Origin: a bacterium
Lineage (GTDB): Bacteria > Elusimicrobiota > Elusimicrobia > Elusimicrobiales > UBA9959
Assembly (NCBI GenBank): GCA_021847485.1
Contig: JAJZRA010000008.1
Span: 1 to 52,544, forward strand
DNA: 52,544 bases
Reading direction: 5' to 3'
Below, one piece after another: positions 1,284 through 51,785 of this stretch (the stretch's first letter is position 1; each line of letters starts with the position of its first letter). Made by a program: the position numbers and the translations under genes. The notes beneath the pieces are model-generated. The model searched no databases and was not told the DNA's origin. It saw only the letters and a program-made list of their open reading frames with translations.

Positions 1284-2225
1284 ATGAAGAAGAACGAGCC
1301 GATAGTCTGCCTTACCGACCGCTGCGGGCAGAGATGCCTCTACTGCTCGCGAGCCGGCTACGACCCCACCTATTCGCCCAGCCGCATCAGGCGCAGGATC
1401 AGGGCCTTCCGGGATTCCATCTGCATCGAGGGCGGAGAGCCCACCATGGCCCCGGACCTGCTGAAATGGGTGCGCTACGCCAAAACCCGGGGCACCCGCG
1501 ACATCATCCTGGTCAGCAACGGCTTCCGGCTGGAGCGGCCGGAATTCGTCAGGAGCCTGCTGGACGCGGGAGTGACCACGTTCAACGTGCAGCTGCCGGC
1601 GCATAACGCGCGCCTCTTCGACCTGGTGACGCAGACTCGCGGCTGCTTCCGGACCAGGCTGGCGGCGGTCAGGAACCTGATCGAGACCGCCGGCCGGACC
1701 AGGGTGCGCCTTACGCACGTCGTCAATTCCGTCACGTACCGCTTCCTGCCGCAGTACGCCGCTTTCCTCGCGGAACGCTTCCCCGGAATACTTTACGTAG
1801 AGCTCAACATGGTCAAAGTGCTGGGCGCAGTGAAGGGGAGGACCTGGCTGGTGCCGCGCCTCTCAGACCTCGCCCCTAAGCTGCTGGAGGCTTTCGAGGT
1901 CCTGGGGAGAGGCGGCGTGCAGTTCCTGACCGACGGCTTCCCCCTCTGCGCTATACCCGGCTACGAGTACCGCTCCATCGACACCTTCAAGCTGGCCCAC
2001 TCCGGCGGCCGGCTCTACCTGAACGAGAAGGTCTCCGGCCCGGCCTGTTCCGGGTGCACGCTCAGGCGGATCTGCCCCGGCCTCCGCTCCGACTACGCCG
2101 GGCTCTACGGCACCGGCGAGCTCAAAGCCTCGCGCAGGGACCCCGGGCCCATGATCCGGAAAGCCTTTCACCAGCTGTGGGAGAAGCCCTCCGGGCCCGA
2201 AGGGCGCCGCTGCGGGCGAGGCTAA
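1284..2225 (+). CDS. Radical SAM protein with C-terminal auxiliary-cluster motif
   Basis: The 313-aa protein has the radical SAM CxxxCxxC motif at C14, C18 and C21, and GGEPT at 50-54, which binds the SAM amino group. The C-terminal part has a PLC cysteine followed by CSGCTLRRIC (C-x2-C-x5-C), the same arrangement found in four radical SAM proteins on the opposite strand. This suggests a second Fe-S cluster of the SPASM/twitch type. It is the only member transcribed on the plus strand and converges with the PLP-enzyme gene: the two stop codons overlap (2222-2225). It has its own TATAAT box. The substrate is unknown; by context it belongs to the Hxs-like modification locus. Confidence 0.85.
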   Translation: MKKNEPIVCLTDRCGQRCLYCSRAGYDPTYSPSRIRRRIRAFRDSICIEGGEPTMAPDLLKWVRYAKTRGTRDIILVSNGFRLERPEFVRSLLDAGVTTFNVQLPAHNARLFDLVTQTRGCFRTRLAAVRNLIETAGRTRVRLTHVVNSVTYRFLPQYAAFLAERFPGILYVELNMVKVLGAVKGRTWLVPRLSDLAPKLLEAFEVLGRGGVQFLTDGFPLCAIPGYEYRSIDTFKLAHSGGRLYLNEKVSGPACSGCTLRRICPGLRSDYAGLYGTGELKASRRDPGPMIRKAFHQLWEKPSGPEGRRCGRG

Positions 2226-3472
2226 TCCAGGGACTTCAGGTACTCCTCCAGCGCGGCCGTGAAAACGTCCGTGTCGGCCTGCGTATTGTAGGAGAAGAAG
2301 GAGAGGCGGACCGTCTCCCTGTAGCCGGAGGCCAGGCAGGCCAGGTCGGCGCAGTGGCGGCCGGTGCGCACCGCTATGAAACGGCCCTTCAGCTGGTGGT
2401 TCAGGAACAGGTTGAAGTCGGGCACCGAGAAGCCCTTCCTGACCGGCACGAAGGAGACCAGCGAACCCTCGAGCAGGTCCTCGCGGCGGCCCAGCACCTT
2501 CACCCCTTTTACGCCCGAAAGCGACTTGAAGGCCCCGTCCACCAGCCCCGAGACGTGGGCGCGGATGTTGTCGAAGCCGCATTCCCCGAGCCGGTCGAGC
2601 GCGGCGGCCAGCCCGGCCGCGCCCGAATAGTTCTGCACGCCGGCCTCGAACCCCTGGTAATTGTCCAGGTACTTGACCCGGAACTTCCCGCCGCCGGCGG
2701 AGACGTCCTCCACCGTGCCGCCGCCGACGCGCCACGGGCGCAGGCGGGCCAGCAGGTCCCTTTTGACGTAGAGCGCGCCGGTGCAGTAGGGAGCGCCGAT
2801 CTTGTGCCCGGAGAACGCGCAGGCGTCGGCGCCGAAAGGCGCGCCGCAGCCGCCGTGCGTGGGCGCGTACTGCGCGTCGTCGGTGAACAGCAGCGCCCCG
2901 GCGGCGTGGGCTATGTCCGCGGCGCGGGCGGCGTCGCAGCGGCCGCCGAAGATGTTGGAGGCGTGGGTGACGCAGACCAGCGCCGTCCTGCGGCCGACCA
3001 GCCGCTCCAGCCCGTCCCAGTCCACGCCGCAGCCCTTGAGCGGGGCGACCTTAAGCTTGATCCTGCCGGCGGCGGCCAGCCGCTCGAACGGCAGGAACAC
3101 GGCGTTATGCTCCAGCGGCGACAGCACCACCTCGTCGCGCGCCGGCGTGAAAGGGAACGAGTTGGCCAGCAGGTTGGCGGCGTCGGTCACGCCGGAGGTG
3201 AAGACGATCTCCTCCGGGGAGGCCGCGCCCATGAAGGCCGCCGCCTTGGCGCGGACGGAGTTGAACTCCTCCTCCATCGCCGAGGCCAGCGCGTGGAAGG
3301 AGCGCTTGCCGCCGCACCCGCCGAGCTCCAGCAGGTGGCGGCGCTGCGCGTCGGCCGCGCAGCGCAGCTTCAGCACCGTGCAGGCGCTGTCCAGGTACAC
3401 CAGCCGCTTGCCCCCGAACCGGGAACCGAGCGCCGGGAACTCCTTGTTCAAAGCTTCGATCTTCTTGTTCAT
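2222..3472 (-). CDS. Cysteine desulfurase-like class V aminotransferase
   Basis: The 416-aa PLP enzyme resembles the SufS/CsdA group. SGHK places the Schiff-base lysine at K224; EHNAVF gives the active-site histidine (H122), TDDAQ the cofactor aspartate, and RTGRHCAD the sulfur-accepting cysteine (C374) in its expected loop. EAGVQNYSG is the usual EAGTPN-type segment with changes. All catalytic residues are kept, so it may remove sulfur from cysteine. It is the last gene of the minus-strand radical SAM operon and its ATG overlaps the stop of the gene before (ATGA, 3469-3472). It may feed sulfur to Fe-S clusters of the neighbouring enzymes, or act directly on a cysteine-containing product. Isc/Suf scaffold genes are absent here. 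Confidence 0.85.
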   Translation of the reverse strand: MNKKIEALNKEFPALGSRFGGKRLVYLDSACTVLKLRCAADAQRRHLLELGGCGGKRSFHALASAMEEEFNSVRAKAAAFMGAASPEEIVFTSGVTDAANLLANSFPFTPARDEVVLSPLEHNAVFLPFERLAAAGRIKLKVAPLKGCGVDWDGLERLVGRRTALVCVTHASNIFGGRCDAARAADIAHAAGALLFTDDAQYAPTHGGCGAPFGADACAFSGHKIGAPYCTGALYVKRDLLARLRPWRVGGGTVEDVSAGGGKFRVKYLDNYQGFEAGVQNYSGAAGLAAALDRLGECGFDNIRAHVSGLVDGAFKSLSGVKGVKVLGRREDLLEGSLVSFVPVRKGFSVPDFNLFLNHQLKGRFIAVRTGRHCADLACLASGYRETVRLSFFSYNTQADTDVFTAALEEYLKSLD

Positions 3473-4314
3473 AATCCGCCGTGAACCGCTATATAGTCCT
3501 TCCTGGGCCCGGGGCAGACCTCGAGGTAGCGGCAGCCGCGGCAGGCCGCGACGCGCTCCTTCTCCTCCAGGTGGGGCCCCGCGGCGCCGTTCTTCATCTT
3601 GGCCACGTCCACGTTCAGCCGCCAGAAACCGCCGAGGAAGCAGGGCGGGATGTGGTCCACCTCGCAGTGCAGGCCGTTCTTCTCGCAGACGAACAGCGCC
3701 CGCTCCAGGAACGGCTTCACTTCCGAGTATTTCGGCAGGAACACGCTGCCCCCGGCCCTGCCTATCCCCTTGATGTAGCTGAACTGCACCCACGACGCGC
3801 CCTTCAGGCCCTTCACCGCGAAAGCGGCGAAGTCCGGCAGCTCCCGGTAGTTCAGCGACGTGATCACGTGCGTCAGCCGCACGCGCGCGCCGGCCTTTAT
3901 CAGCCGGCCGACGCCCTTGAGCCGCTTCGCGAAGCCCCCGCGCACGCGGGTGATCTTCAGGTCCAGCGCGGCCGTGGCGGCCGGGAAATTCACGTTGAAA
4001 TAGCCGTCCGCCGCGTTCAGCGCCTTCACCAGGGCGCCGAGCCTGTCCGCGCGCATGCCGGCGGCCGCCAGCGCGTTGGTCTGCAGCTCCGCGCGGCGGC
4101 CCAGCTTCCTGACCGCCGCCAGCAGGGCCAGCAGGCCGGCGTGCGGGGCCAGCAGCGGCTCACCGCCGGAGATCTGCACCAGGCCCGGGGGCATAGCGGC
4201 TATCTCCTTGAGCCAGTCCTTGAGCGACGCCTCCTCCTCCGCGCCGGCCTCGGCGGGGTAGGAGCAGAACACGCAGCGCTGGTTGCAGCGCCTGAACAGG
4301 TGGATCAGAGCCAT
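3469..4314 (-). CDS. Radical SAM protein (operon paralogue 3)
   Basis: The 281-aa protein starts with the cluster motif almost at once (C10, C14, C17), followed by GGEPL at 50-54. The C-terminal region has PPC followed by CRGCRYLEVC, the shared PxC plus C-x2-C-x5-C auxiliary motif. The ATG at 4314 lies inside the end of the upstream gene (10-nt overlap), and its TGA overlaps the next ATG, so translation is probably coupled. It lacks the long N-terminal domain seen in the HxsB-like protein. It is related in sequence style to the 4305-5504, 5501-6433 and 7584-8471 products. A catalytic function cannot be assigned. Confidence 0.85.
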   Translation of the reverse strand: MALIHLFRRCNQRCVFCSYPAEAGAEEEASLKDWLKEIAAMPPGLVQISGGEPLLAPHAGLLALLAAVRKLGRRAELQTNALAAAGMRADRLGALVKALNAADGYFNVNFPAATAALDLKITRVRGGFAKRLKGVGRLIKAGARVRLTHVITSLNYRELPDFAAFAVKGLKGASWVQFSYIKGIGRAGGSVFLPKYSEVKPFLERALFVCEKNGLHCEVDHIPPCFLGGFWRLNVDVAKMKNGAAGPHLEEKERVAACRGCRYLEVCPGPRKDYIAVHGGL

Positions 4315-5504
4315 TTCTTCATCTCTTCGTAGGGCTTCGCCAGCGACCAGCGGTAGGTCCCCTTCTCGAACGAGCTTTTGACCAGCCCCTTGGCGCCCAG
4401 GCTGGCGGCCGAGTTCATCACGACGTTGCCGTCCGAGCAGTCGCGGCACAGCACGATATCCTTCGAGAGCGCGAGCACCTCCCTGGTGGAGGCGCCGGGC
4501 TTTATACGCAGGATCTCCACCAGGCATTTCTCGTTGTCGGACAGGTAGACCCGGCCGGCCGCGCCGGCCTTGCGGGCCGCCGCGCCCTTCTTCACCGGGA
4601 CGAAGCCGGTCCAGCCGAAGCGCTCTATATAATGCACGTCGGCGCCGCGGCATTTGGCGGCGAGCGCGCAGGTCCGGCACGGCGGGCCCTGCACCTTGGC
4701 CGCCTCGGCGTTGGCGTCCAGGTCGGTGCGGGCGCCGGCCGGGTCGGTCACCAGCGTATTGAAGAGGTCCAGGCCTATCGCCAGCTTCTCGCGGCCTTTC
4801 AGGAAGCAGGGCGGCACGTTCAGGAACAGGATCTCGCCGGGCAGGCCGGCGCGCTCCATCACCTTGACGGCCGCGTCGAAGTACTGCTCGCAGTCGCCCA
4901 GCCGCACGCCGAGCTTCCTGCAGTTGCGGTCCATCGCGCCGGTATAGACCGGGTAGATGATCACGAAGTTGGTGATGCCGCGGTCCAGGTAAAAGGAGAT
5001 GATCTCCGGCAGCCGCGCGTAATTGAGGCGGTTGACCAGGATATTGGTGCCGAGGCGGACCTTGAGGCGGCGCAGGTTCTCGAGACCCGCCAGGGCCTTC
5101 TTCAGCGCGCCCGGCACGCCGACGAGCCTGTCGTGGTCGGCCGCCCTGTCGGAGGTGAACGAGAACTTGCAGAAGGTCAGCCCGGCGTCCGCGAGGGCCG
5201 CGCAGAACTCCGGGTCGGCCAGCCTGATGCCGTTGGTCTGCACGCGGATGAAGCGGAAGCCGACCGACCTGCCCAGCGCTATCACCTTCAGGATGTCGGG
5301 GCGCACCAGCGGCTCGCCGCCGGTCAGCCCGAGGCGGCGGTAGCCGGCCTTCCAGGCGGAATAGATGTTGCGCGCTATCGCGCTGAACGGCGCGTTAAGA
5401 GACTTGTCGAAACCGCCCTGCGAGCAGAACAGGCAGCGCGCGTTGCAGTTGTAGTTAAGTATCAGCTCGTAGCAGCGGCCCGAGCCTTCGTCGGCTTTCT
5501 TCAT
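4305..5504 (-). CDS. Radical SAM protein with C-terminal helical extension (operon paralogue 2)
   Basis: The 399-aa protein carries CxxxCxxC at C20, C24 and C27 and TGGEPL at 61-66. VPPC and then CRTCALAAKC give the auxiliary cysteines common to the set. Unlike its paralogues it continues for about 100 residues after this motif. That tail contains an extra CRDC and ends in a basic, winged-helix-like stretch that may bind a partner or substrate; this is inference. The ATG at 5504 overlaps the preceding stop (ATGA). It sits in the middle of the minus-strand operon. Confidence 0.83.
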   Translation of the reverse strand: MKKADEGSGRCYELILNYNCNARCLFCSQGGFDKSLNAPFSAIARNIYSAWKAGYRRLGLTGGEPLVRPDILKVIALGRSVGFRFIRVQTNGIRLADPEFCAALADAGLTFCKFSFTSDRAADHDRLVGVPGALKKALAGLENLRRLKVRLGTNILVNRLNYARLPEIISFYLDRGITNFVIIYPVYTGAMDRNCRKLGVRLGDCEQYFDAAVKVMERAGLPGEILFLNVPPCFLKGREKLAIGLDLFNTLVTDPAGARTDLDANAEAAKVQGPPCRTCALAAKCRGADVHYIERFGWTGFVPVKKGAAARKAGAAGRVYLSDNEKCLVEILRIKPGASTREVLALSKDIVLCRDCSDGNVVMNSAASLGAKGLVKSSFEKGTYRWSLAKPYEEMKKWL

Positions 5505-6433
5505 TTCACGGCCTTCAGTTCGGCGTCCCCGTAATTGCGCAGGTACTCCACCCAGATGCCCTCGCAGGCGCGGTAGAGGCGGCAGCCGCGGCAGCGCGCG
5601 GTCTTGCGGCGGCCGACCGCGGCGCGGGAGCCGATGGCGTCCTCGTTGCGGAAGTCCGGCGCCCAGTGCTCGGTCAGGAACAGCGCGCGCTCGTTGATCT
5701 CGCTGATCTGGTCCAGGCAGTCCCTGAAATGACAGAGCGGCACGTAACGGACCTTCCACTGCCCGTAGCCGGCCTCCCGGCCGGCCGCCAGCGCGCGCCG
5801 CATGTACGGGGCGGCCTTCGAGATGCGCGGCACCAGCCCTTTAAAATCGTTGCGGGCCCCTCCGTAATTGGGGTCGACGAAGATATACTCCACGTTGCGC
5901 ACGCGGTTCCTCGCGTAGAACTCCGCCAGCCGCGGCAGCGCGGCCATGTTGCCCTTCACCACGGTGGTGTTGCCGCCTATCCGTTCGAAGCCGAGGGCGC
6001 GCAGGTTGCGCAGGCCCTTCTTGAGCTGCGCGAAGCTGCCCGGCACGCGGGTCAGCGCGTCGTGCGTGGCGGCGTCGGGGCCGTGCACGGAGAAGATGAC
6101 GGAATCTATGCCGGCGCCGACGATGCGCTTGGCGGCGGCGGGGTCGGCGAAGACCCGGCCGTTGGTGGCGCAGCTGACCTGCGGGATGCCGAGCTTCTTG
6201 GCCGCCGCGACCACCCGGGCGAAGTCGGGCCGGATCGTCGCCTCGCCGCCGATGAACTCCAGGATATGCGCGCCCTTGCGCGCGGCGGCCGCCGTCTCCC
6301 TGAGCAGCTCGGCCGTCGTCTTCTCCGGCAGGCCGCGCTTGTCGGCGTCGATGCAGAAGGCGCAGTTGTTGTTGCAGGCGTAGCCCGTGAACAGCACGAC
6401 CTTGAGCATCTTGGGGGCTTTATCCTTGGTCAT
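5501..6433 (-). CDS. Radical SAM protein (operon paralogue 1)
   Basis: The 310-aa protein has CNNNCAFC (C20, C24, C27) and an IGGEAT variant of the GGE motif. Its C-terminus has VPLC and CRGCRLYRAC, then a tail ending in GDAELKAVK that resembles the tail of the 7584-8471 product. I chose the ATG at 6433 because it overlaps the TGA of the A24 peptidase gene as ATGA, like the other junctions, rather than a longer upstream frame inside that gene. The reaction and substrate are unknown. Its place directly behind the peptidase gene suggests it acts on the same product. Confidence 0.83.
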   Translation of the reverse strand: MTKDKAPKMLKVVLFTGYACNNNCAFCIDADKRGLPEKTTAELLRETAAAARKGAHILEFIGGEATIRPDFARVVAAAKKLGIPQVSCATNGRVFADPAAAKRIVGAGIDSVIFSVHGPDAATHDALTRVPGSFAQLKKGLRNLRALGFERIGGNTTVVKGNMAALPRLAEFYARNRVRNVEYIFVDPNYGGARNDFKGLVPRISKAAPYMRRALAAGREAGYGQWKVRYVPLCHFRDCLDQISEINERALFLTEHWAPDFRNEDAIGSRAAVGRRKTARCRGCRLYRACEGIWVEYLRNYGDAELKAVK

Positions 6434-7587
6434 CTGAAGAAGGCCGTCACGCCGCGGTCCAGGACCAGCGTCAGCGCCGCCCCGGCGAAGATCCACAGCG
6501 CGAACGGCTTGCCCTTGACCGTCTCTATCTTCGGGTCCTGCACCGGCAGCTTCCGGAGCCAGCCTTTCAGCAGCTCCACCTGCTCGGCGGTGAGCCCGTC
6601 CTTGAAGCAGTCCTCGAACGCCCCGTCGAAGACGGGGTTGTTCTTAAGCGTGCGGGCGGCGCCGGAGGAGAGGATCATCCCCGGCTCCAGCTCGCGCGGG
6701 CCCACGTAGACCGTGTCCTTCTTCTCCATCAGGTGCTCCAGCATGAAGCGGCCGAAGAAGAGGATCAGGCTGAACTTGAAGACGTTGGCGAGCGAGGCCA
6801 GCAGCAGCGCGGCGAGGCGGTCGTAGAAGAGGAAATAGCCGGCGAAGAAATAGACGGCGTAGCAGGCCGTCGTCACGTAGAGCCACTTCCGGCCGGTGAA
6901 GACGTCGCCGACCTTGTCCCACAGGAAGAACAGGAAGAAGTAGATGATGTCGGTGCGCCCCAGGAAGCGCCCCAGGAAATAGCGCGTCTCCATGTTCAGG
7001 ACCTGCTGCAGCAGGAACAGGAAGGTCATGTTGGCCAGGTAGGCGCCGATGCGCCAGCCGCCGCGCGCGCCGGTGCCGGCCAGCTCGGAGAAGCGCCGCT
7101 TCACGTCGCCCCGCAGCTCGGCGAAGAAATCGGCGGGGCTCGCCCGGTAGAAGCCGGCGGCCAGGAAGGACCCGAAGGTCACGAGCGCCGCGGCGACGAA
7201 GGTGTTGACCAGGATGCCGATGAACAGGTAATTGGGGAAGTTGCGGATGAACGGGTCGATGACCGGCAGCCAGGCCGCGCACAGCATGAAGAACTTGGCG
7301 TCGCCCGCGGGCCAGACGCCGGAGTACCACAGCACCACGCCGGCCGTGGCCGCCCACAGGAAATGGACGGCCCACAGCCCGTAGAAGCTCCAGTTCAGAT
7401 AGCTGGCCGAGCGGCCGTAGTGCCCCAGCGCGGTGTTCAGGGCCAGCAGGCCCAGCGCCAGCAGCAGCAGCTTGAAGCCGGCGGTTATCCGCGCGTTGGG
7501 GATCTTCCGGGAGGCCATGTCCACGCCGACCACCGAGACGCCCCACCAGGAGAAGGCGGCGAGATAGACCAGGTAGAGGTATTTCAT
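6430..7587 (-). CDS. A24-family (prepilin/preflagellin-type) aspartic membrane peptidase with archaeal-like C-terminal domain
   Basis: The 385-aa polytopic membrane protein keeps both catalytic aspartates of A24 leader peptidases: D23 in VDMASRKIPN (D-x5-IPN) and D96 in PAGDAKF (GD-x-K). These enzymes cut the leader of type IV pilin-like and archaellin precursors at the inner membrane. After a middle block of membrane helices comes a soluble stretch with GPRELEPGMIL and DGLTAEQVELLK, then a last helix. This resembles the C-terminal domain of archaeal preflagellin peptidases rather than bacterial PilD, and the zinc-binding N-terminal domain of PilD is missing. No pilus assembly genes are nearby; the gene is embedded between radical SAM genes with ATGA overlaps on both sides. 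The secreted protein at 10753-11487 is the obvious candidate substrate in the operon. Confidence 0.8.
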   Translation of the reverse strand: MKYLYLVYLAAFSWWGVSVVGVDMASRKIPNARITAGFKLLLLALGLLALNTALGHYGRSASYLNWSFYGLWAVHFLWAATAGVVLWYSGVWPAGDAKFFMLCAAWLPVIDPFIRNFPNYLFIGILVNTFVAAALVTFGSFLAAGFYRASPADFFAELRGDVKRRFSELAGTGARGGWRIGAYLANMTFLFLLQQVLNMETRYFLGRFLGRTDIIYFFLFFLWDKVGDVFTGRKWLYVTTACYAVYFFAGYFLFYDRLAALLLASLANVFKFSLILFFGRFMLEHLMEKKDTVYVGPRELEPGMILSSGAARTLKNNPVFDGAFEDCFKDGLTAEQVELLKGWLRKLPVQDPKIETVKGKPFALWIFAGAALTLVLDRGVTAFFR

Positions 7588-8471
7588 AGCCGCCTGAGCT
7601 CGCCGTCCCCGAAAGCCTTGTGATACTCGGCCATCAGGCCGAGGCAGCCGCGCCGAGCGGCGCAGCCCCTGCACTTCTCCGTATAGACCCTGTCCTCTTT
7701 CGGCAGCGTCACCCAGCAGAGCCGCCGCAGCTCCTTGCGCACCAGGCAGCGCGGGAAATGGTAGAGCCTGAAATTCCTGAAGCGCCTGACCCGGGGCAGC
7801 GCCGCGGCCAGCGCGGCCGCGGAGTCCCTGAGGCGGAGCGCCAGCCGGCGGTGGTTGGCGAGCGACATTCCCTCGATCTCGTAGTGGATCAGCGTGACGC
7901 GGTAGCGCTCCGTGTCAGGATAGCGCTCCAGCAGCGAGGCCAGCAGCCGGCCCAGCCGGCGGACGTTCAGCCGGTGCAGCACCACGCGGACCTCGACGTC
8001 CACGGCGCCGCCGGCCGCCAGCAGGTTGTCCAGGCCGGCCATGGTCTGCGCGTAGGCGCCGCGCGCGCCGGCTATCTTGTCGTGCAGCGCCGGCGTGTCG
8101 GCGTGCACCGGCACCGCCACGGCGAAAGGCGGGGCGGCCACCGCCAGAAAGCGCCGCGTGAAGGCGGCGTCGGCGAAGCGGCGCCCGTTGGAGAGCAGCG
8201 TGATGCCGGTCTCCGGCAGGCGGCGCCGGAAATAGGCGAGCAGGCGGAAGAAGTCGGGATGGATGGTCGGCTCGCCGCCGGTCAGGCTGACGAAGCCGCG
8301 CTTCTCGTCGTTCTTGAGGTAGACCCCGCCGCGCCCCCTCAGCCAGCGCTCGAGCTTCTCCACCTGCGCGCGCAGGCCGTAGAGCGCGGGGTCGTGCCGC
8401 GCGAAGGAGGCTTCGTTGGTGCACATCACGCAACGATTGTTGCACTTGTTCCAGAAAGCTATGTCGGGCAT
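7584..8471 (-). CDS. HxsC-like radical SAM protein
   Basis: The 295-aa protein begins with NKCNNRCVMC (C10, C14, C17), then LTGGEPTIHP, and a VPVHAD/HDKIAG segment that recalls the HxsC partner maturase of His-Xaa-Ser systems. FPRC and CRGCAARRGC form the auxiliary motif shared with the other paralogues. Its assignment as HxsC rests on motif style and on its place one gene from an HxsB-like protein; it could equally be another member of the local paralogue family. It starts 43 bases after the stop of the small HxsD-like gene, the only gap of this kind inside the coupled block from 10277 to 2222. Confidence 0.75.
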   Translation of the reverse strand: MPDIAFWNKCNNRCVMCTNEASFARHDPALYGLRAQVEKLERWLRGRGGVYLKNDEKRGFVSLTGGEPTIHPDFFRLLAYFRRRLPETGITLLSNGRRFADAAFTRRFLAVAAPPFAVAVPVHADTPALHDKIAGARGAYAQTMAGLDNLLAAGGAVDVEVRVVLHRLNVRRLGRLLASLLERYPDTERYRVTLIHYEIEGMSLANHRRLALRLRDSAAALAAALPRVRRFRNFRLYHFPRCLVRKELRRLCWVTLPKEDRVYTEKCRGCAARRGCLGLMAEYHKAFGDGELRRL

Positions 8472-8514
8472 GGTCAGGCGGCCGCGCGCCGCGCGGCCTC
8501 CGCGAAGTACGGGC

Positions 8515-8829
8515 TCAGGCCCTCTTCTTCGGGGTCTTCCCCTCGCCGGCGGCGGAGAGCAGGGCCCGGGTGGCTATCATGCCGGCGGCCTTGGCGTTCT
8601 TCTTCGCCAGGTCCAGCCGGCACTGCTGGTTGAGGGCCTCGTTGAAATAATCTCCGGGAGAGAAACTTTCGGCGGCGCCCGAGAAAGAGACGGCGTAGAA
8701 GCCTGCGCCGGCGGCCTTCACGGCGATGCCGGCCCTGCCGGCGAAGACGAAGGCCGCCAGCCTGAGGGCCTCGCCGGAGTAGACGGCCGCGTCCACGCGG
8801 ACGGAGGCCTTGTCGGAGTTCTTGGTCAT
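8515..8829 (-). CDS. HxsD-like small protein, copy 1
   Basis: The 104-aa product has the HxsD layout: an N-terminal strand (SVRVDAAVYSGEALRLAAFVF), a second strand pair, then a helix NEALNQQCRLDLAKKN that parallels the LLNDYxLRE-type signature of the family. HxsD proteins accompany the HxsB/HxsC radical SAM pair; I suspect a peptide-recognition or chaperone role, by analogy with other small radical SAM partner proteins. The ATG overlaps the HxsB-like stop (ATGA). The end is odd: after the TGA at 8515, another frame keeps coding-like third positions for 14 more codons up to a TGA just before the next ATG, so a frameshift at the 3' end is possible. Confidence 0.68.
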   Translation of the reverse strand: MTKNSDKASVRVDAAVYSGEALRLAAFVFAGRAGIAVKAAGAGFYAVSFSGAAESFSPGDYFNEALNQQCRLDLAKKNAKAAGMIATRALLSAAGEGKTPKKRA

Positions 8830-10277
8830 TTTTGCACCCACTTCCTGAGCACGGCCTCGTTGGCCGGCTTCTTCAGCAGGCCGAAGAGCGCGCCGAACGT
8901 CCCCTTGAACAGGGCGCAGCGGTCGTTGACGGCCATGTCCCCCCACAGCGAACCCTGCGTCTCGTAGTTATAGACGGGACAGACCCCGCAGTAGGGCCTG
9001 TAGACGCAGCGGGCGCAGTCCGGCTGGGACTCCAGGTTGGAGGCGAGCACGCAGGCCCTGGCGGCGCCGCCGGTCAGCACCTTGCGGTAAGAGTCCTTGC
9101 GCACGTTGCCTATCCTGAAGGCGTCGTCGCCGTCCCAGCCGACCATGCGGCCTTCGTCGCAGGTATAGAGGTCGCCGTTATAGTTGTAGGCGATCTGGCC
9201 TATCGCCGCGCCGCAAGGGCAGCGCGCGTCCAGGTACCCCGGGTCCCGGAAGTTGAGCACTTTCTCCAGCATCGTGGCCGACATCTTCTCGCGGATAACG
9301 ACTCCGGAGCGGTTCAGCTTCAGGATGTAGTCGAGGCTGTCCAGGTAGAACTTCGCGAAATCGGCCGCCGTGTAGCCGATGCGGTCCCAGTATTTCCTGG
9401 CGTAGCCGATCGGCGCGAGCGGCCGCACGAAGACGTCCTCGAGCCCCAGCTTGACGTACTCGTCGACGATCTCCTTGTGGCGGCCGAGCGAGCAGCGGGA
9501 CACCGTCAGCAGCGCGCTGGGCTTGAACGTGCGGTACTCCGGGACCTGCCGTTTGTACTTCTCCTGGAAATACCGGAGCCACTTCACGGTGGCGGCGTGC
9601 GAGTCGCCCCCGGAATAGACCCGGTTGCGGTTGTGCAGGTCCGCGGGCCCGTCGAGCGAGGTGCAGATGGAGACCTCGTTCTCCATCAGGAAGCGCGCCT
9701 TCTCCACGGTCATCAGGCTGAAGTTGGAGACCAGCGCCAGCTGCAGGTCCTTGCCGGCCCTGGCGGCCCGGGCCCTGGCGTGCAGCACGGCCGCGGTCAG
9801 GGCGTCCCAGTTCAGCAGCGGTTCGCCGCCCTGGAACTCTATGGTGATATTGGGGTTAGGGGAGCCGAAGGCGAAATCCACGCATTTGCGGGCCGTGGCC
9901 GGGCTCATGTCGGTGTCCCTGGCGCCCACGCCGGCGGCGGCCGACTGGCAGTAGAGGCACTTGTGATTGCAGCGCAGCGTCAGCACGAGGATGTGCAGGC
10001 CCGGGCCGGAGGCCAGGTGCGAGTTCGCGGAGCGCCACCGGGCGGCGAGGCCCTCGAAGTCGAGGCGGTCGCGGACGAAACCCTTGGCGGCGAGGTCCCC
10101 GTAGAGCGGGTGCTTGTCGCTCAGCCCGCCGGACATCAGGGCCTCGAAGTCGCGCAGTCCGAGCCACGCGTAGTGTCCGGAATCGTTGGTCACCAGGCAC
10201 CTGTCGCCGTCGCGGCGCCACAGCAGGTGCGGGGCCCCGGGGCGGCTAGTTCTTTCTGCGGCTTTTTTTTGCGCCAT
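8826..10277 (-). CDS. hxsB: HxsB-like radical SAM/SPASM maturase
   Basis: The 483-aa protein has an N-terminal substrate-domain-like part (DGDRCLVTNDSGHYAWL, residues 23-39), the radical SAM motif at C103, C107 and C110, QGGEPL, and a full SPASM region. That region includes CPCGAA, GDLYTCDEGRM, then CARCVYRPYCGVCPVYNYETQG and a last NDRC. The TCDEGRM and CGVCPVYNY...NDRC combination matches my memory of the His-Xaa-Ser system maturase HxsB. Such enzymes install a radical-derived cross-link or modification in a ribosomally made protein. The ATG at 10277 overlaps the preceding gene by 32 nt across a run of eight A. It is flanked by HxsD-like genes on both sides. Confidence 0.8.
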   Translation of the reverse strand: MAQKKAAERTSRPGAPHLLWRRDGDRCLVTNDSGHYAWLGLRDFEALMSGGLSDKHPLYGDLAAKGFVRDRLDFEGLAARWRSANSHLASGPGLHILVLTLRCNHKCLYCQSAAAGVGARDTDMSPATARKCVDFAFGSPNPNITIEFQGGEPLLNWDALTAAVLHARARAARAGKDLQLALVSNFSLMTVEKARFLMENEVSICTSLDGPADLHNRNRVYSGGDSHAATVKWLRYFQEKYKRQVPEYRTFKPSALLTVSRCSLGRHKEIVDEYVKLGLEDVFVRPLAPIGYARKYWDRIGYTAADFAKFYLDSLDYILKLNRSGVVIREKMSATMLEKVLNFRDPGYLDARCPCGAAIGQIAYNYNGDLYTCDEGRMVGWDGDDAFRIGNVRKDSYRKVLTGGAARACVLASNLESQPDCARCVYRPYCGVCPVYNYETQGSLWGDMAVNDRCALFKGTFGALFGLLKKPANEAVLRKWVQK

Positions 10278-10731
10278 ACTTGTCTTCCCAGGTCTTCGTG
10301 ATGCCGAGGGGGTCCGCCGCGCCGCCGGCGGCGGCCTCCTGCTTGATCTCCGCCTCCACCTGCGCGATCAGGGCGTCGAGCTCTTTCTCCTGCTCCGGGG
10401 TCAGGCCGGAATCGTCCTGGCGGGCCGGGGCTTTTTCCGGCTCGCCCGCGAGGGCCTTCAGCAGCATGAAATCCCTGAGCTCGCGGTTGGCCTCCCAGAG
10501 GGAGGCGCGCAGGCGCTCGTCGGCCAGCTCGGCCCGGAACGCGGCCGCGGCCCCGGCCGCGGTGCAACCGCCCGTCGGTTCCAGTTCCACGACCGCCGTC
10601 CCTGGGCCGTCCAGCCGGATAAAGACCCTGGCCGAGCGGCTGGCCGCGTGCGCGGCGTAGCGTACCGTCTCCAGCGCGCAGTCCGCCAGGCTTACGCGCA
10701 CCTCCGTCCTCTTGTTGCCGGTCTTGTTCAG
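10246..10731 (-). CDS. HxsD-like protein, copy 2, with C-terminal tail; probable CTG start
   Basis: The core (VRVSLADCALETVRYAAHAA, then FRAELADERLRASLWEANRE) follows the HxsD pattern even better than copy 1, followed by an acidic/basic tail of about 60 residues ending in KKSRRKN. An in-frame GTG at 10701 directly abuts its own GGAGG, which is too close. A CTG at 10731 lies five bases behind a strong GGGAGG (10737-10742) and gives an N-terminus equal in length to copy 1; I therefore prefer 10731 (161 aa). No ATG is available in frame before the upstream stop. It is the second gene of the operon, 21 bases behind the secreted-protein gene, and overlaps the HxsB-like gene by 32 nt. Confidence 0.65.
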   Translation of the reverse strand: MNKTGNKRTEVRVSLADCALETVRYAAHAASRSARVFIRLDGPGTAVVELEPTGGCTAAGAAAAFRAELADERLRASLWEANRELRDFMLLKALAGEPEKAPARQDDSGLTPEQEKELDALIAQVEAEIKQEAAAGGAADPLGITKTWEDKYGAKKSRRKN

Positions 10732-10752
10732 ATCTTCCTCCCGATAAAAACG

Positions 10753-11487
10753 TCAGCTCACCTGGATGCGGCAGCAGATCATATTGCCGGAGCAGTTCAT
10801 CTCGTAATGCGGCACCCAGCGCCCCGGGTTCTCCAGCGCGCCGCCCAGGAACAACAGGCCCCCGGAAGGGCAGGCGGCGCCGCCGCCGTAGCTGCCCATG
10901 AAGAAATAGCCGGGCGGGCAGGGCGTGGTCGACCCGCTGGAGTAGCCCACCATGCGGCAGACGCCCATCAGATAGCCGTTGTCGATCTGGACGTTGCCGT
11001 TGACGTGCAGGCGCTGCGCCGGGTTGGTGCCGACGCCCAGGTTGGCGTTGTCCACGCGCAGCATGCCGGGGGCGCCCATGATGATCCTGGCGTTGAAATC
11101 GGCGCTGGAGGTATTGGCGAAGTCTATGAAGGGCGTGCCGCCGCTGGAATCGGAGCGCAGCTCTATGCCGACATTGGGGTCGTCGTCCACCACGAAGCGG
11201 TCCATGGAGTTCTTGTTCATCTTCACTTCCAGGACCCCCTGGGGGTTGTCGTTGCGGATACCGACGGCGTAGCGGTTGCCGTTGTTGCCTTCCCGGGCGA
11301 GGAGGGTGCGCTGGGTGGTAAGCAGGCTTACGTAACCGCCGTAGGGGGCCGGGTAATAGGTGGTGAGCTGCAGCGTCTCCGAACCCAGCGGCCTGGGGTG
11401 CCAGCACAGGAACAGCAACGCCAGCGCAAGGAAGGCGGACCTCCGCGTGAACCTGAACTGCAGCGTCACTATATTCTCGTTCTCCAT
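10753..11487 (-). CDS. Secreted protein with TTYYPAPYGGY motif and cysteine-rich C-terminus; candidate substrate
   Basis: The 244-aa protein begins with a basic stretch and a hydrophobic segment (about residues 14-32), then LTTYYPAPYGGYVSLLTT, a motif I associate with a large family of exported proteins in Elusimicrobiota-like genomes. The middle resembles tail-fibre or adhesin repeats (VGTNPAQRLHVNGNV). The last 70 residues contain six cysteines (VCRM, TPCPPGYF, AACPSG, NCSG, MICCRI). It is the first gene of the radical SAM operon, behind a good promoter, so it is the best candidate for the protein that is modified and processed. It has no His-Xaa-Ser repeats and no classic pilin G-F-T-L-x-E site, so both roles are inference. 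Confidence 0.7.
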   Translation of the reverse strand: MENENIVTLQFRFTRRSAFLALALLFLCWHPRPLGSETLQLTTYYPAPYGGYVSLLTTQRTLLAREGNNGNRYAVGIRNDNPQGVLEVKMNKNSMDRFVVDDDPNVGIELRSDSSGGTPFIDFANTSSADFNARIIMGAPGMLRVDNANLGVGTNPAQRLHVNGNVQIDNGYLMGVCRMVGYSSGSTTPCPPGYFFMGSYGGGAACPSGGLLFLGGALENPGRWVPHYEMNCSGNMICCRIQVS

Positions 11488-11564
11488 AAGACCCCCTCTT
11501 CCCTCGCCGCCGGCGGGACAAAAGACATGGGAGCGGAACGGCCGGCCGGCGCCGGCCCGCATTC

Positions 11565-11598: not shown

Positions 11599-11614
11599 TA
11601 CGCGGGCGCGTATT
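11597..11614. repeat. Inverted repeat overlapping the -35 box of the operon promoter
   Basis: Two 8-base arms, AATACGCG and CGCGTATT, are separated by GG. The repeat overlaps the first bases of the -35 box of the radical SAM operon and touches the stop codon of the barstar gene. It may be an operator. No T-run follows in either direction, which argues against a terminator. Confidence 0.45.
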
Positions 11615-12000
11615 TAAAGAAGGACCACCTTGAACTGCACGTTCAACTTTTCCGCCAGGAACTCCGCGGCCTCGGCCGCCACTTCCCTGAAGACGGCCAT
11701 CTCGTCCGCGGACGCGGAGAGGAAAGCCCCCGAGTTCAGCACGGCCAGCACGTAGCCCCGGGCGGGGTTGAACTCCGGCATGGAGCGCAGGCAGTCGAGC
11801 AGGGCGTCCCAGTTGCGCCCGAAATAGGAGGGGAACTTCAGCGCCGCGGCGGCCTCGGTCATCAGGCCGTCCTTGCCGCGCGACTTCGAGCCGTCCATGA
11901 AAGCGGTGAAATAGAACGGCGGAGGGAATCTTTCAACGACTCCCTCCGCCGTACCGTCCGGCCGCAGGTCGATGAAAACCTCGTCGCCGGGACGCGCCAT
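11614..12000 (-). CDS. Barstar-family ribonuclease inhibitor
   Basis: The 128-aa protein has the barstar core: FMDGSKSRGKDGLMTE, then ALKFPSYFGRNWDALLDCL, matching the fold's conserved PxYFGxNWDALxDCL segment whose helix plugs the RNase active site. It has no signal peptide, so it would act in the cytoplasm. The start lies four bases behind the stop of the secreted RNase gene, so the pair is co-transcribed, as expected for an enzyme and its inhibitor. An unusually long first strand region (about 30 residues) precedes the core. Confidence 0.85.
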   Translation of the reverse strand: MARPGDEVFIDLRPDGTAEGVVERFPPPFYFTAFMDGSKSRGKDGLMTEAAAALKFPSYFGRNWDALLDCLRSMPEFNPARGYVLAVLNSGAFLSASADEMAVFREVAAEAAEFLAEKLNVQFKVVLL

Positions 12001-12004
12001 CCGC

Positions 12005-12571
12005 TCAGTAGACCACGGTCAGCTCGATAAAATGCGCGTAATGGTCCGGCGTGTAGTAGACGTGCTGGCCGCCGCCGATGATCACGCGCTCGGAGCCGCG
12101 GGCGCTCAGGTCGGGGGCGACCTGGTAGGTCTGACCGCCGATGGTGACGGTATGCGGCGCGCTGCCGGTCAGCAGCGTGTATTCATGGTAGTAGCCCCTG
12201 GGCTGCTGGGGCAGGCGGCCTTCTTTATTGGAGAAGATCGCGCCGTCCTGCGAATAGGGCAGGTGGACGCCGTTATAAATGTCGGTGAGCAGCTTCATGA
12301 TCGCCTTGACGCGGGCGTTGTCCTCGACGGCAGGCGAGAAGGTGCGGCCGGGGCGGGGGCAGTCGGCGGAGGATCTCTCCGCTGCGGCCTCGGGGGCCTT
12401 GACCTCGGGCAGCGCCGGCAGCTCGACGTAATTGCCGGCCGTCATCAGGTCGGAGAGCGCGGGCGCCTCGGGCGCGGCGGCGGGGGCCGGCTGCGCGAAA
12501 AGGTTCGCGGAGGGGAAAGCGAGGGCGGCTACGACTGCGACTTTCAACCACAGGTTCTTGTTCTTCATCAT
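12005..12571 (-). CDS. Secreted barnase-type guanyl-specific ribonuclease
   Basis: The 188-aa precursor has a signal peptide (MKNKNLWLKVAVVAALAF, ending near LFA-Q), a proline/alanine-rich linker to about residue 70, and a C-terminal microbial RNase domain. GYYHEYTL carries the general base (E130), SERVIIGG the arginine (R162) and YYTPDHYAHF the general acid (H177), the barnase Glu-Arg-His set. It should cut single-stranded RNA outside the cytoplasm. The ATG at 12571 is supported by AAGGA at 12577-12581. The barstar gene follows directly. Such pairs serve nutrient scavenging or bacterial competition; the sequence does not decide which. Confidence 0.87.
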   Translation of the reverse strand: MMKNKNLWLKVAVVAALAFPSANLFAQPAPAAAPEAPALSDLMTAGNYVELPALPEVKAPEAAAERSSADCPRPGRTFSPAVEDNARVKAIMKLLTDIYNGVHLPYSQDGAIFSNKEGRLPQQPRGYYHEYTLLTGSAPHTVTIGGQTYQVAPDLSARGSERVIIGGGQHVYYTPDHYAHFIELTVVY

Positions 12572-50398: not shown

Positions 50399-50899
50399 TT
50401 ATCTCCTGTTCGCCCTCTCCAGCGGGGCCCCGGCGCCGGCGGGGGCGGGCTCGGCCTTCTTCAGCACGTAGTACTGCGGCTTCTTGCGCCTTATCGTGTA
50501 GTCGCCGCTCTTCCATTCGAAGAACATGTAGAGGGCGCCGTCGATCTCCTTTATGGTATAGCGGGAGGCCGTATGGTCGCCGCCCAGGTGCATCACCACG
50601 CCTTTCGTCCAGCCGAACCACGGCACCGCGGTCTTGCCGCCCGGCAGGAAGGTGAGCCCCTCCAGGTACAGGTCGCCGCGGAACCGCCTGGCCCCGGGCG
50701 TGAACTGGGAAGGCTCCCTGACGAAATCCACGCTGACCCAGCGCCCCAGCGCCGCGGGGTCGTTCACGAAGGACAGGTTGGAAAAATCGTCGACCAGCCT
50801 GCCGTTCACCTCGGTGGTGTTGATCACCGGCTCCCCGGAGGCGGCCATGGCCGGCACCGCCGTCATCACCGCTATCACCGCAATAAGGACCCTTTTCAT
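50399..50899 (-). CDS. Secreted single-copy WTKG/FFEWKSGDY-domain protein
   Basis: The 166-aa precursor has a signal peptide (KRVLIAVIAVMTAVPAMA) and one domain of about 105 residues: FVNDPAALGRWVSVDFV, LYLEGLTFLPGG, GWTKGVVMH, then ALYMFFEWKSGDYTIRRKKP and YYVLKK. The same domain occurs twice in the product of 51009-51785. I have seen it at the C-terminus of some BlaR1-like and AraC-type proteins of Firmicutes, but know no function. GGAGGGATT precedes the start. It has a short proline/alanine-rich tail. Confidence 0.75.
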   Translation of the reverse strand: MKRVLIAVIAVMTAVPAMAASGEPVINTTEVNGRLVDDFSNLSFVNDPAALGRWVSVDFVREPSQFTPGARRFRGDLYLEGLTFLPGGKTAVPWFGWTKGVVMHLGGDHTASRYTIKEIDGALYMFFEWKSGDYTIRRKKPQYYVLKKAEPAPAGAGAPLERANRR

Positions 50900-51008: not shown

Positions 51009-51785
51009 CTACTTCCTCTTCAGGACATAATAGAAAGGCTTCCGGCCGCGGAAGACGTAGTCCCCGCTCTTCCATTCGAAGAACATGTATTCCGTCCCGC
51101 CGATCTTCTTTATCTCGTATCCGGAGGCGGTGCGGTCGCCGCGGTGCAGCACGTAGCCTTTGGTCCAGGTCCACCACGGGTCGCCGCCCTTGCCGCCCGG
51201 CAGGAAGACCAGCTTCTTGAGGTACAGGTCCTCTTTCCAGGCCTTTACGCCCGGCCTGAAGTCGGCCGGCGTTCTTACGAAGTCCACGCTGTCCCATTCC
51301 CCGGCGACGCGCGGATCGTCCCTGAAGGGCAGGTCGATATCGTCGCGGCGGATGCCGGCCTCTTTCTTGAGCACGTAGTACTTGGGGGCCATATGGCGGA
51401 TGGTATAGTCGCCGCTCTTCCACTCGAAGAACATGTACTCGGCCCCGGCCAGCTTCTTTATCTCGTAGCGGGCGGCGGTCCTGTCCCCTTTATGCATCAC
51501 CGCGCCTTTGGTCCAGGTCCACCACGGGTTGCCCCCCTTGCCGTCAGGCAGGAAGACCAGCTCTTTAAGGTAGAGGTCCGCGGCCGCCGGGGCGCCGGGG
51601 CGGAAATCCGCCGACTTGTCCACGAAGGCCACCGACCTCCAGGAACCCAGCGCGGCCGGGTCGTTCACGAACGGCAGGTCGATGTCGTCCACGATGCGCC
51701 CCTGGGCGTTCACCGAGCTCTTGATCTCCAGCCCGCCGGCCGGGCCGGCGGCCAGCAGCAGGGCCATGACCGTTATCTTTACCAT
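51009..51785 (-). CDS. Secreted protein with two tandem WTKG/FFEWKSGDY domains
   Basis: The 258-aa precursor has a signal peptide (VKITVMALLLAAGPAGG) and two copies of the domain found in 50399-50899 (about 38-140 and 147-255). Both have DLYLK.LVFLP.GKGG.PWWTWTKG and YMFFEWKSGDY. The first ends ...YYVLKKEAG and is joined by a short linker to RRDDIDLPFRDDP. The strong similarity between copies points to a tandem duplication. It starts one base after the stop of the anti-sigma-like gene, so it is the likely regulated output of the ECF sigma factor. The function is unknown. Confidence 0.78.
   Translation of the reverse strand: MVKITVMALLLAAGPAGGLEIKSSVNAQGRIVDDIDLPFVNDPAALGSWRSVAFVDKSADFRPGAPAAADLYLKELVFLPDGKGGNPWWTWTKGAVMHKGDRTAARYEIKKLAGAEYMFFEWKSGDYTIRHMAPKYYVLKKEAGIRRDDIDLPFRDDPRVAGEWDSVDFVRTPADFRPGVKAWKEDLYLKKLVFLPGGKGGDPWWTWTKGYVLHRGDRTASGYEIKKIGGTEYMFFEWKSGDYVFRGRKPFYYVLKRK

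Follow-up and report, generated by a model that had tools for sequence, protein, structure and literature searches.

What does a bacterium modify with an operon that sets five radical S-adenosylmethionine (SAM) enzymes beside two HxsD-like proteins and a membrane peptidase, and how is such an operon related to the known His-Xaa-Ser (Hxs) systems? The question is raised by ten genes in a stretch of 52,544 nucleotides (hereafter the window), which is contig JAJZRA010000008.1 (C5) of the 2.2-Mb draft genome GCA_021847485.1 from the UBA9959 lineage of the phylum Elusimicrobiota. The operon is a real, conserved and expanded variant of the known Hxs system, and its likely substrate is an HxsA4-type protein encoded on another contig of the same genome, C43. 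The operon makes up one of the two halves of an extensive enzymatic assembly line, the probable target being a surface protein with histidine-serine repeats that would be modified by several radical enzymes and then cut at the membrane.

The operon and its conservation in relatives

The HxsB protein of the operon clears the cut-off of its NCBIfam model (TIGR03978, 471.4 against 370 bits), and the operon stands beyond chance because HxsB was found over this cut-off in 90 of 340 genomes of the phylum and because the gene order recurs. Among the same 340 genomes, HxsA4 was matched at E ≤ 0.001 in 93 (79 over cut-off) and the A24 peptidase family in 88; HxsB occurs together with HxsA4 in 85 and with the A24 family in 81, the latter co-occurrence having a Fisher p of 6e-59 with kinship ignored. 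Profile matches and joint conservation of the genes in relatives bear out the preliminary description of this DNA as an operon of the Hxs type in which extra radical SAM enzymes are joined by two HxsD-like proteins and an A24-type peptidase; HxsB matches over its cut-off, the HxsC- and HxsD-like proteins under theirs.

Gene order was compared in 49 stretches, namely the window and 48 others hand-picked from HxsB matches, in which HxsB is present by construction and families were counted with profiles built from the same loci. The two HxsD-like proteins, D1 and D2, were found in 44 and 33 stretches, HxsA in 34, the secreted TTYYPAP family in 34 (window included), HxsC in 27 and A24 in 27. D1 adjoins HxsB in 40 of the 49, and hxsA lies no more than 5 kb from an HxsB gene in 34. 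The A24 gene and hxsA share a stretch in 20 of the 49 overall and in 16 of the 30 belonging to the window's own family, where 2.5–28 kb separate them.

The fullest order is TTYYPAP, D1, HxsB, D2, X, HxsA and, after an interval, RQ, a further HxsB, HxsC, A24, R3, another gene, R2, R1 and the desulfurase. It is complete in genome G123, lacks X in G120 and has X and HxsA swapped in G114; for G107 and G106, R1 and the desulfurase are not in the stretch. The window has a reduced form, common to G125, G126, G139 and G157, in which HxsC follows D2 directly and X, HxsA and RQ are absent. A separate HxsB-X-HxsA module stands later on the same contig in G126, G139, G157, G142 and G149, with 12–19 kb between the A24 gene and hxsA; G142 and G149 retain X and RQ between D2 and HxsC. 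Between the two hxs modules of G149 are NifH-like and nitrogenase component 1-like genes (L035:18513–20000 and L036:1007–2320). Radical SAM genes next to nitrogenase paralogues are reportedly described in a 2020 study of groundwater Elusimicrobia (ISME Journal).

The ten genes of the operon, all encoded on the minus strand (11487 to 2222), were called as open reading frames by a simple caller of our own that places some starts wrongly. Five of the nine junctions are overlaps of exactly four bases, in agreement with the same-direction, mostly four-base arrangement first reported; two are larger overlaps (32 and 10 bases) and two are gaps (51 and 43 bases). The first gene (10753–11487) encodes the secreted TTYYPAPYG protein of 244 amino acids, or 269 if the start is at 11562. 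It is followed by D1 (10246–10701; TIGR03976, 15.4 bits, E 0.018), with a C-terminal tail containing DPLGITKTWEDK, by the radical SAM/SPASM maturase HxsB (8826–10277; CxxxCxxC at residue 103), by D2 (8515–8829; TIGR03976, 26.6 bits against a cut-off of 50 that D1 also misses) and by an HxsC-like radical SAM enzyme (7584–8471). Next come the A24-like membrane aspartic peptidase (6430–7587; WPAGDAK subfamily, C-terminal domain), the radical SAM enzymes R3 (5501–6433), R2 (4305–5504, with a C-terminal extension) and R1 (3469–4314), and a SufS-like cysteine desulfurase (2222–3472), which is over the cut-off of PF00266 (242 bits) and under that of the SufS model (TIGR01979, 256.8 against 475.1 bits).

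The five radical SAM genes reported earlier are all in the operon, but a sixth had been missed. This gene, OPP, is on the plus strand (1284–2225), encodes another HxsC-like enzyme, with the C-terminal motif CSGCTLRRICPG, and is convergent with the desulfurase gene, the 3' ends of the two overlapping by four bases. All six radical SAM proteins have both CxxxCxxC and a C-terminal CxxCx5C motif. TIGR03977 is the best NCBIfam model for the HxsC-like protein (162.2 bits, under the cut-off of 267.9) and likewise for R1 (70.1 bits), R2 (83.9 bits) and OPP (80.5 bits), all under the curated cut-off; R3 is closest to HxsC4 (NF038332, 133.5 bits, far under the cut-off of 500) and scores 72.9 bits with TIGR03977. 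It is very improbable that the extra enzymes produce a small-molecule cofactor through MoaA/NirJ-type chemistry instead of modifying a protein. R1–R3 and OPP do match MoaA and heme-type models, and nitrogenase-like genes occur near hxs modules in the one relative mentioned above, but the MoaA and heme-type scores are lower, TIGR03977 or HxsC4 being the top NCBIfam model in every case, and these enzymes recur beside HxsB, HxsD and HxsA.

Directly upstream of the operon, a barstar-like gene (PF01337, 75.3 bits) stands beside one for a secreted barnase-type ribonuclease (PF00545, 51.5 bits) at 11614–12571, and this pair keeps its position in many relatives. Near the other end of the window, two adjacent secreted-looking proteins (50399–50899 and 51009–51785) have an FVNDPAALGxW stretch in common and are likely a local duplication.

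HxsA on contig C43 and the secreted TTYYPAP protein

The absence of His-Xaa-Ser repeats that was remarked on at the outset holds for the window, where we found no run of at least three H-x-S triplets and no HxsA leader motif, but not for the genome. C43 encodes an HxsA4-type protein of 103 residues with H-G-S repeats (C43:21327–21638) that clears the HxsA4 cut-off (NF038313, 80.9 against 55 bits), and in many relatives such a protein is encoded in the same cluster as the operon genes. On C43, hxsA belongs to a module with a second HxsB (430.4 bits) and the conserved gene X, which has no assigned function, and 11 called genes in 31 kb contain CxxxCxxC. About 24 kb around hxsB-X-hxsA (L033 and L034) are rich in radical SAM genes, at least one of which has a B12-binding domain. 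In a quick, midpoint-rooted FastTree phylogeny of HxsB, the C43 and window proteins share a clade of 23 members (support 0.986), consistent with an origin of the second module by duplication.

The secreted cysteine-rich protein of the operon, initially taken as the ribosomal product, is ruled out as the sole candidate by the finding of HxsA; it is no longer the obvious product, and we regard this TTYYPAP protein as a putative surface partner instead. The window protein has no Pfam or NCBIfam match at E ≤ 1 and a weak match to a phage tail fibre (E 7e-4), and the motif pattern has one match in its own genome.

Could the operon nevertheless modify the TTYYPAP protein and not HxsA, leaving the C43 module with its own HxsB to serve HxsA alone? 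We consider this quite unlikely. In its favour, the operon begins with the TTYYPAP gene, and in 24 of the 49 stretches a member of this family is the immediate neighbour of D1; moreover, 72 of the 86 phylum genomes with the motif have HxsB over cut-off (Fisher p 7e-42, kinship again ignored), and the motif, judged by eye, recurs near the N-terminus. Against this, the fuller clusters (G107, G152, G106 and G123) have hxsA one or two positions downstream from D2, next to an HxsB of that same kind, and the TTYYPAP profile is only weakly matched in archaeal loci (16–33 bits in 3 of 16). The other 14 genomes with the motif are without an over-cut-off HxsB, so the protein does not need the system, which also makes its part in the system uncertain. 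One of these genomes, G233, has 13 motif sites, and the motif also spreads outside hxs clusters.

The HxsA leader and the A24-like peptidase

Among the H-x-S repeat frames of the loci collected, artefacts and truncated frames were recognised by eye, and frames with identical ends were counted once. The leader motif F-x3-E-[EKR]-[GA] is upstream of the repeats in 61 of 71 distinct frames, five of them archaeal. In one of the remaining ten (L024) the F is replaced by Y; three are truncated at the end of a locus, two were judged to be other-frame artefacts (L021 and L022) and four are ordinary plasmid HxsA frames; outside the ordinary loci, the leader is found in 62 of 62 assessable frames. After the motif come several charged residues, then a hydrophobic segment and, in most cases, an H[ST]N-like stretch. 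Tad/Flp-type prepilins have a basic leader with E-E-G before their hydrophobic segment, and the HxsA leader is similar, although HxsA has charged residues after the glycine. By sequence, HxsA was rejected as an Flp pilin: four HxsA proteins scanned against Pfam gave a collagen model as best match, through their repeats, and no Flp model. This special leader and the dedicated A24-type peptidase are the elements of the system that look new.

Within the A24-like family, 22 of 35 rows match PF01478 at E ≤ 0.01, and its cut-off is exceeded by the proteins of L187 (36.5 bits), L186 (32.2 bits) and L047 (26.6 bits). D23, N31, W92–D96 and K98 are invariant in the 22 rows taken from loci chosen by HxsB, among them both catalytic-type aspartates, D23 and D96; the wider set of 35 rows agrees on these positions, most of its rows having been picked through the WPAGDAK motif. 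Archaeal A24-like proteins have the second aspartate in 15 of 15 cases and match the first-aspartate pattern in 12 of 15, and the archaeal A24 C-terminal domain is also matched by 3 of the 35 rows. The structure model of the A24-like protein has membrane helices and a predicted local distance difference test (pLDDT) score of 84.9. The family resembles the A24 prepilin and preflagellin peptidases (PF01478; FlaK, 3s0x) in its two invariant aspartates and in the membrane helices of the model, and differs from them in having P-A-G-D for G-x-G-D, in the sub-cut-off Pfam score of the window protein and in its hxs gene context. The model had no match in the PDB at E ≤ 0.001, and a search of the family against PDB sequences gave no useful match.

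The association of this peptidase with Hxs genes was followed further by scanning genome_contigs with a single eight-residue pattern, [VI]WPAGDAK, which misses variants and makes the motif invariant among its rows by construction. The scan gave 72 confirmed A24 loci, 53 of them with HxsB, HxsD, an HxsA leader or H-x-S runs in the fetched stretch; where at least 20 kb were available, an Hxs marker was present in 30 of 35 loci. Most of the records are titled Elusimicrobia, Elusimicrobiota or bacterium, and three are DPANN archaea, all three Hxs-positive. Genomes were sampled from the two phyla to which an Aenigmatarchaeota locus and a Nanohalarchaeota locus belong, and HxsB over cut-off was present in 8 of 145 and 4 of 28 of them, respectively. 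Our archaeal set consists of 14 loci chosen by HxsB, from 12 genomes (the G355 and G388 loci being under the HxsB cut-off), and two known through A24. An A24-like gene (21–79 bits) is no further than three genes from HxsB or the accompanying HxsD genes in 12 of the 14, the exceptions being L221, without A24, and L222, with only a distant one (19 bits). Two HxsD-like genes stand side by side in 13 of the 16 archaeal loci, and HxsA with repeats was found in L216, L219, L226, L186 and L188, with a fragment in L183. In the Elusimicrobiota, G325 (L048) has an HxsB of the ordinary clade and genes in the simple order D1-HxsB-HxsC; it gave no match to the A24 family, which fits the position of its HxsB.

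From these data we judge it reasonably probable that the operon is one module of an expanded Hxs system acting on the C43 HxsA4-type substrate, which is exported and then trimmed by the A24-like peptidase. A number of observations weigh against this reading. In the source genome hxsA is on another contig than the operon, and C43, which carries other genes on its outer side, can be called no more than a possible neighbour of C5. The HxsC-like protein and both HxsD-like proteins score under their cut-offs, as given above. The A24 family occurs without an over-cut-off HxsB in 7 genomes of the phylum and the reverse holds in 9, while 19 of the 72 A24 loci have no Hxs marker in the fetched stretch. 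The HxsB tree joins the archaeal clade to the ordinary one (support 0.91), and therefore the A24 variant is not a single HxsB clade; the association is either old and lost or was gained twice. As for the peptidase itself, the sole Pfam match of the window protein, PF01478, reaches 17.3 bits, under the cut-off of 26.5; P-A-G-D replaces G-x-G-D in all 22 HxsB-chosen rows; and the match to FlaK is not significant (E 5.9), although its TM score of 0.43 on the target was the highest in the 50 rows listed. In HxsA, the 8–9 residues past E-E-G include several charged ones, a point in which type IV pilins differ, and an A-x-A-like signal peptidase I site is seen by eye past the hydrophobic segment.

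Given the A-x-A-like site and the charged residues, an ordinary signal peptidase could therefore cut HxsA, and E-E-G could be a recognition sequence. The corresponding alternative leaves the cutting of HxsA to signal peptidase I: the E-E-G leader would then do no more than mark HxsA for recognition by HxsD or HxsB, and the A24-like protein would be either a membrane anchor with altered catalysis or a peptidase that acts on some other surface protein. The recurrent H[ST]N stretch next to the A-x-A-like sites would suit it, as would the proline in place of the first glycine of G-x-G-D, the alanine in place of the second in four archaeal A24-like proteins and the nonsignificant fold match to FlaK. 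We nevertheless think it unlikely, as both catalytic-type aspartates are invariant in the 22 rows, the second is kept throughout the archaeal proteins, and leader type and A24 gene travel together, the four ordinary loci having neither.

Known systems and a proposed mechanism

The likeness of the C43-assisted system to canonical HxsABCD (TIGR03976–TIGR03978) lies in an HxsB over cut-off, HxsC- and HxsD-type proteins and an H-x-S-repeat HxsA in the same genome. The canonical loci that we examined, on plasmids of Aeromonas, Nostoc, Novosphingobium and Methylobacter, have one HxsD and two radical SAM genes, and none of the four matches the A24, leader or TTYYPAP profiles. Their HxsA starts with an apparently plain signal peptide, unlike the F-x3-E-[EKR]-G type of leader found here. 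A variant has been noticed before, as the NCBIfam models HxsA4 and HxsC4 (NF038313 and NF038332) show. By profile score against these and the HxsD-like model (NF038315), the C43 HxsA is over the HxsA4 cut-off, R3 is nearest to HxsC4, and the archaeal D2 of L186 comes near the HxsD-like cut-off (38.8 against 41 bits). In contrast, the A24-like protein of the window matches no NCBIfam model at E ≤ 1. HxsB and HxsC are called putative maturases in PMC9062424, and the phrase His-Xaa-Ser also occurs in PMC8446631 and PMC6537148. Searches of the open literature on Hxs, on radical SAM and nitrogenase genes of Elusimicrobia, on prepilin peptidases with radical SAM enzymes and on cyclophanes found no description of the present system and no product structure or function for any Hxs system.

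TIGR03976 is matched at E ≤ 0.01 by 28 of 35 HxsD-like rows. A PqqD-like recognition element of ribosomally synthesised and post-translationally modified peptides consists of three strands followed by three helices; the AlphaFold2 model of D2 (mean pLDDT 88.7) has the order beta-alpha-beta-beta-alpha-alpha, with no PDB match at E ≤ 0.001, and we rejected HxsD as a domain of that type. A search of the HxsD family against PDB sequences gave no useful match. As leads only, the model is weakly like an RNA polymerase subunit dimerisation fold (7a6h_K, probability 0.89, TM 0.53, E 0.31), and the sequence profile weakly matches RpoA (E 0.51). At its C-terminus, the archaeal D1 of L186 (L186:10905–11585) is fused to a ferredoxin domain of the 4Fe-4S type (Fer4_13, 49.7 bits), and comparable cysteines are found at the C-terminus in three further archaeal loci (L226–L228), while CxxCxxC is found in none of 50 Elusimicrobiota D1 proteins; a DPxGIxxPW-like tail is also present in some archaeal D1. 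The ferredoxin fusion in one archaeal group hints at an adaptor or electron-delivery role beside the radical enzymes, and HxsD may therefore hold enzymes, substrate or electron donor together.

A sequence of events can be proposed on this basis. HxsA would start with a hydrophilic leader that bears F-x3-E-E-G-K, continue with a hydrophobic segment and end in H-G-S triplets, and the two HxsD proteins would deliver it to the radical SAM enzymes, whose iron-sulfur clusters the desulfurase may supply. HxsB and the HxsC-type enzymes would act on the triplets in the cytoplasm, where the likeliest modification is the crosslinking of neighbouring side chains. Radical SAM/SPASM enzymes are known that modify peptides, and cyclophane formation at three-residue motifs is known too; by analogy the three-residue period of H-x-S would suit crosslinks within each triplet. 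HxsA would then be exported and trimmed at the membrane by the A24-like peptidase, most likely near E-E-G/K, the predicted outcome being a surface rod of H-x-S repeats, anchored or assembled, that has the TTYYPAP protein for a putative partner.

More tentatively, Elusimicrobiota and DPANN archaea could have in common a class of surface polymer, a radical-SAM-crosslinked H-x-S rod with a prepilin-like leader that is processed, and perhaps polymerised in a pilin-like manner, by a dedicated A24 peptidase; we hold this to be possible, with the chances against it. The occurrence of the substrate leader, a dedicated membrane peptidase and an HxsC-type enzyme set together in bacteria and archaea makes leader recognition, order of action and export testable. 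Should the H-x-S triplets indeed end up crosslinked into a rod, the product would be a new type of surface polymer whose genes form large radical SAM clusters in many members of the Elusimicrobiota.

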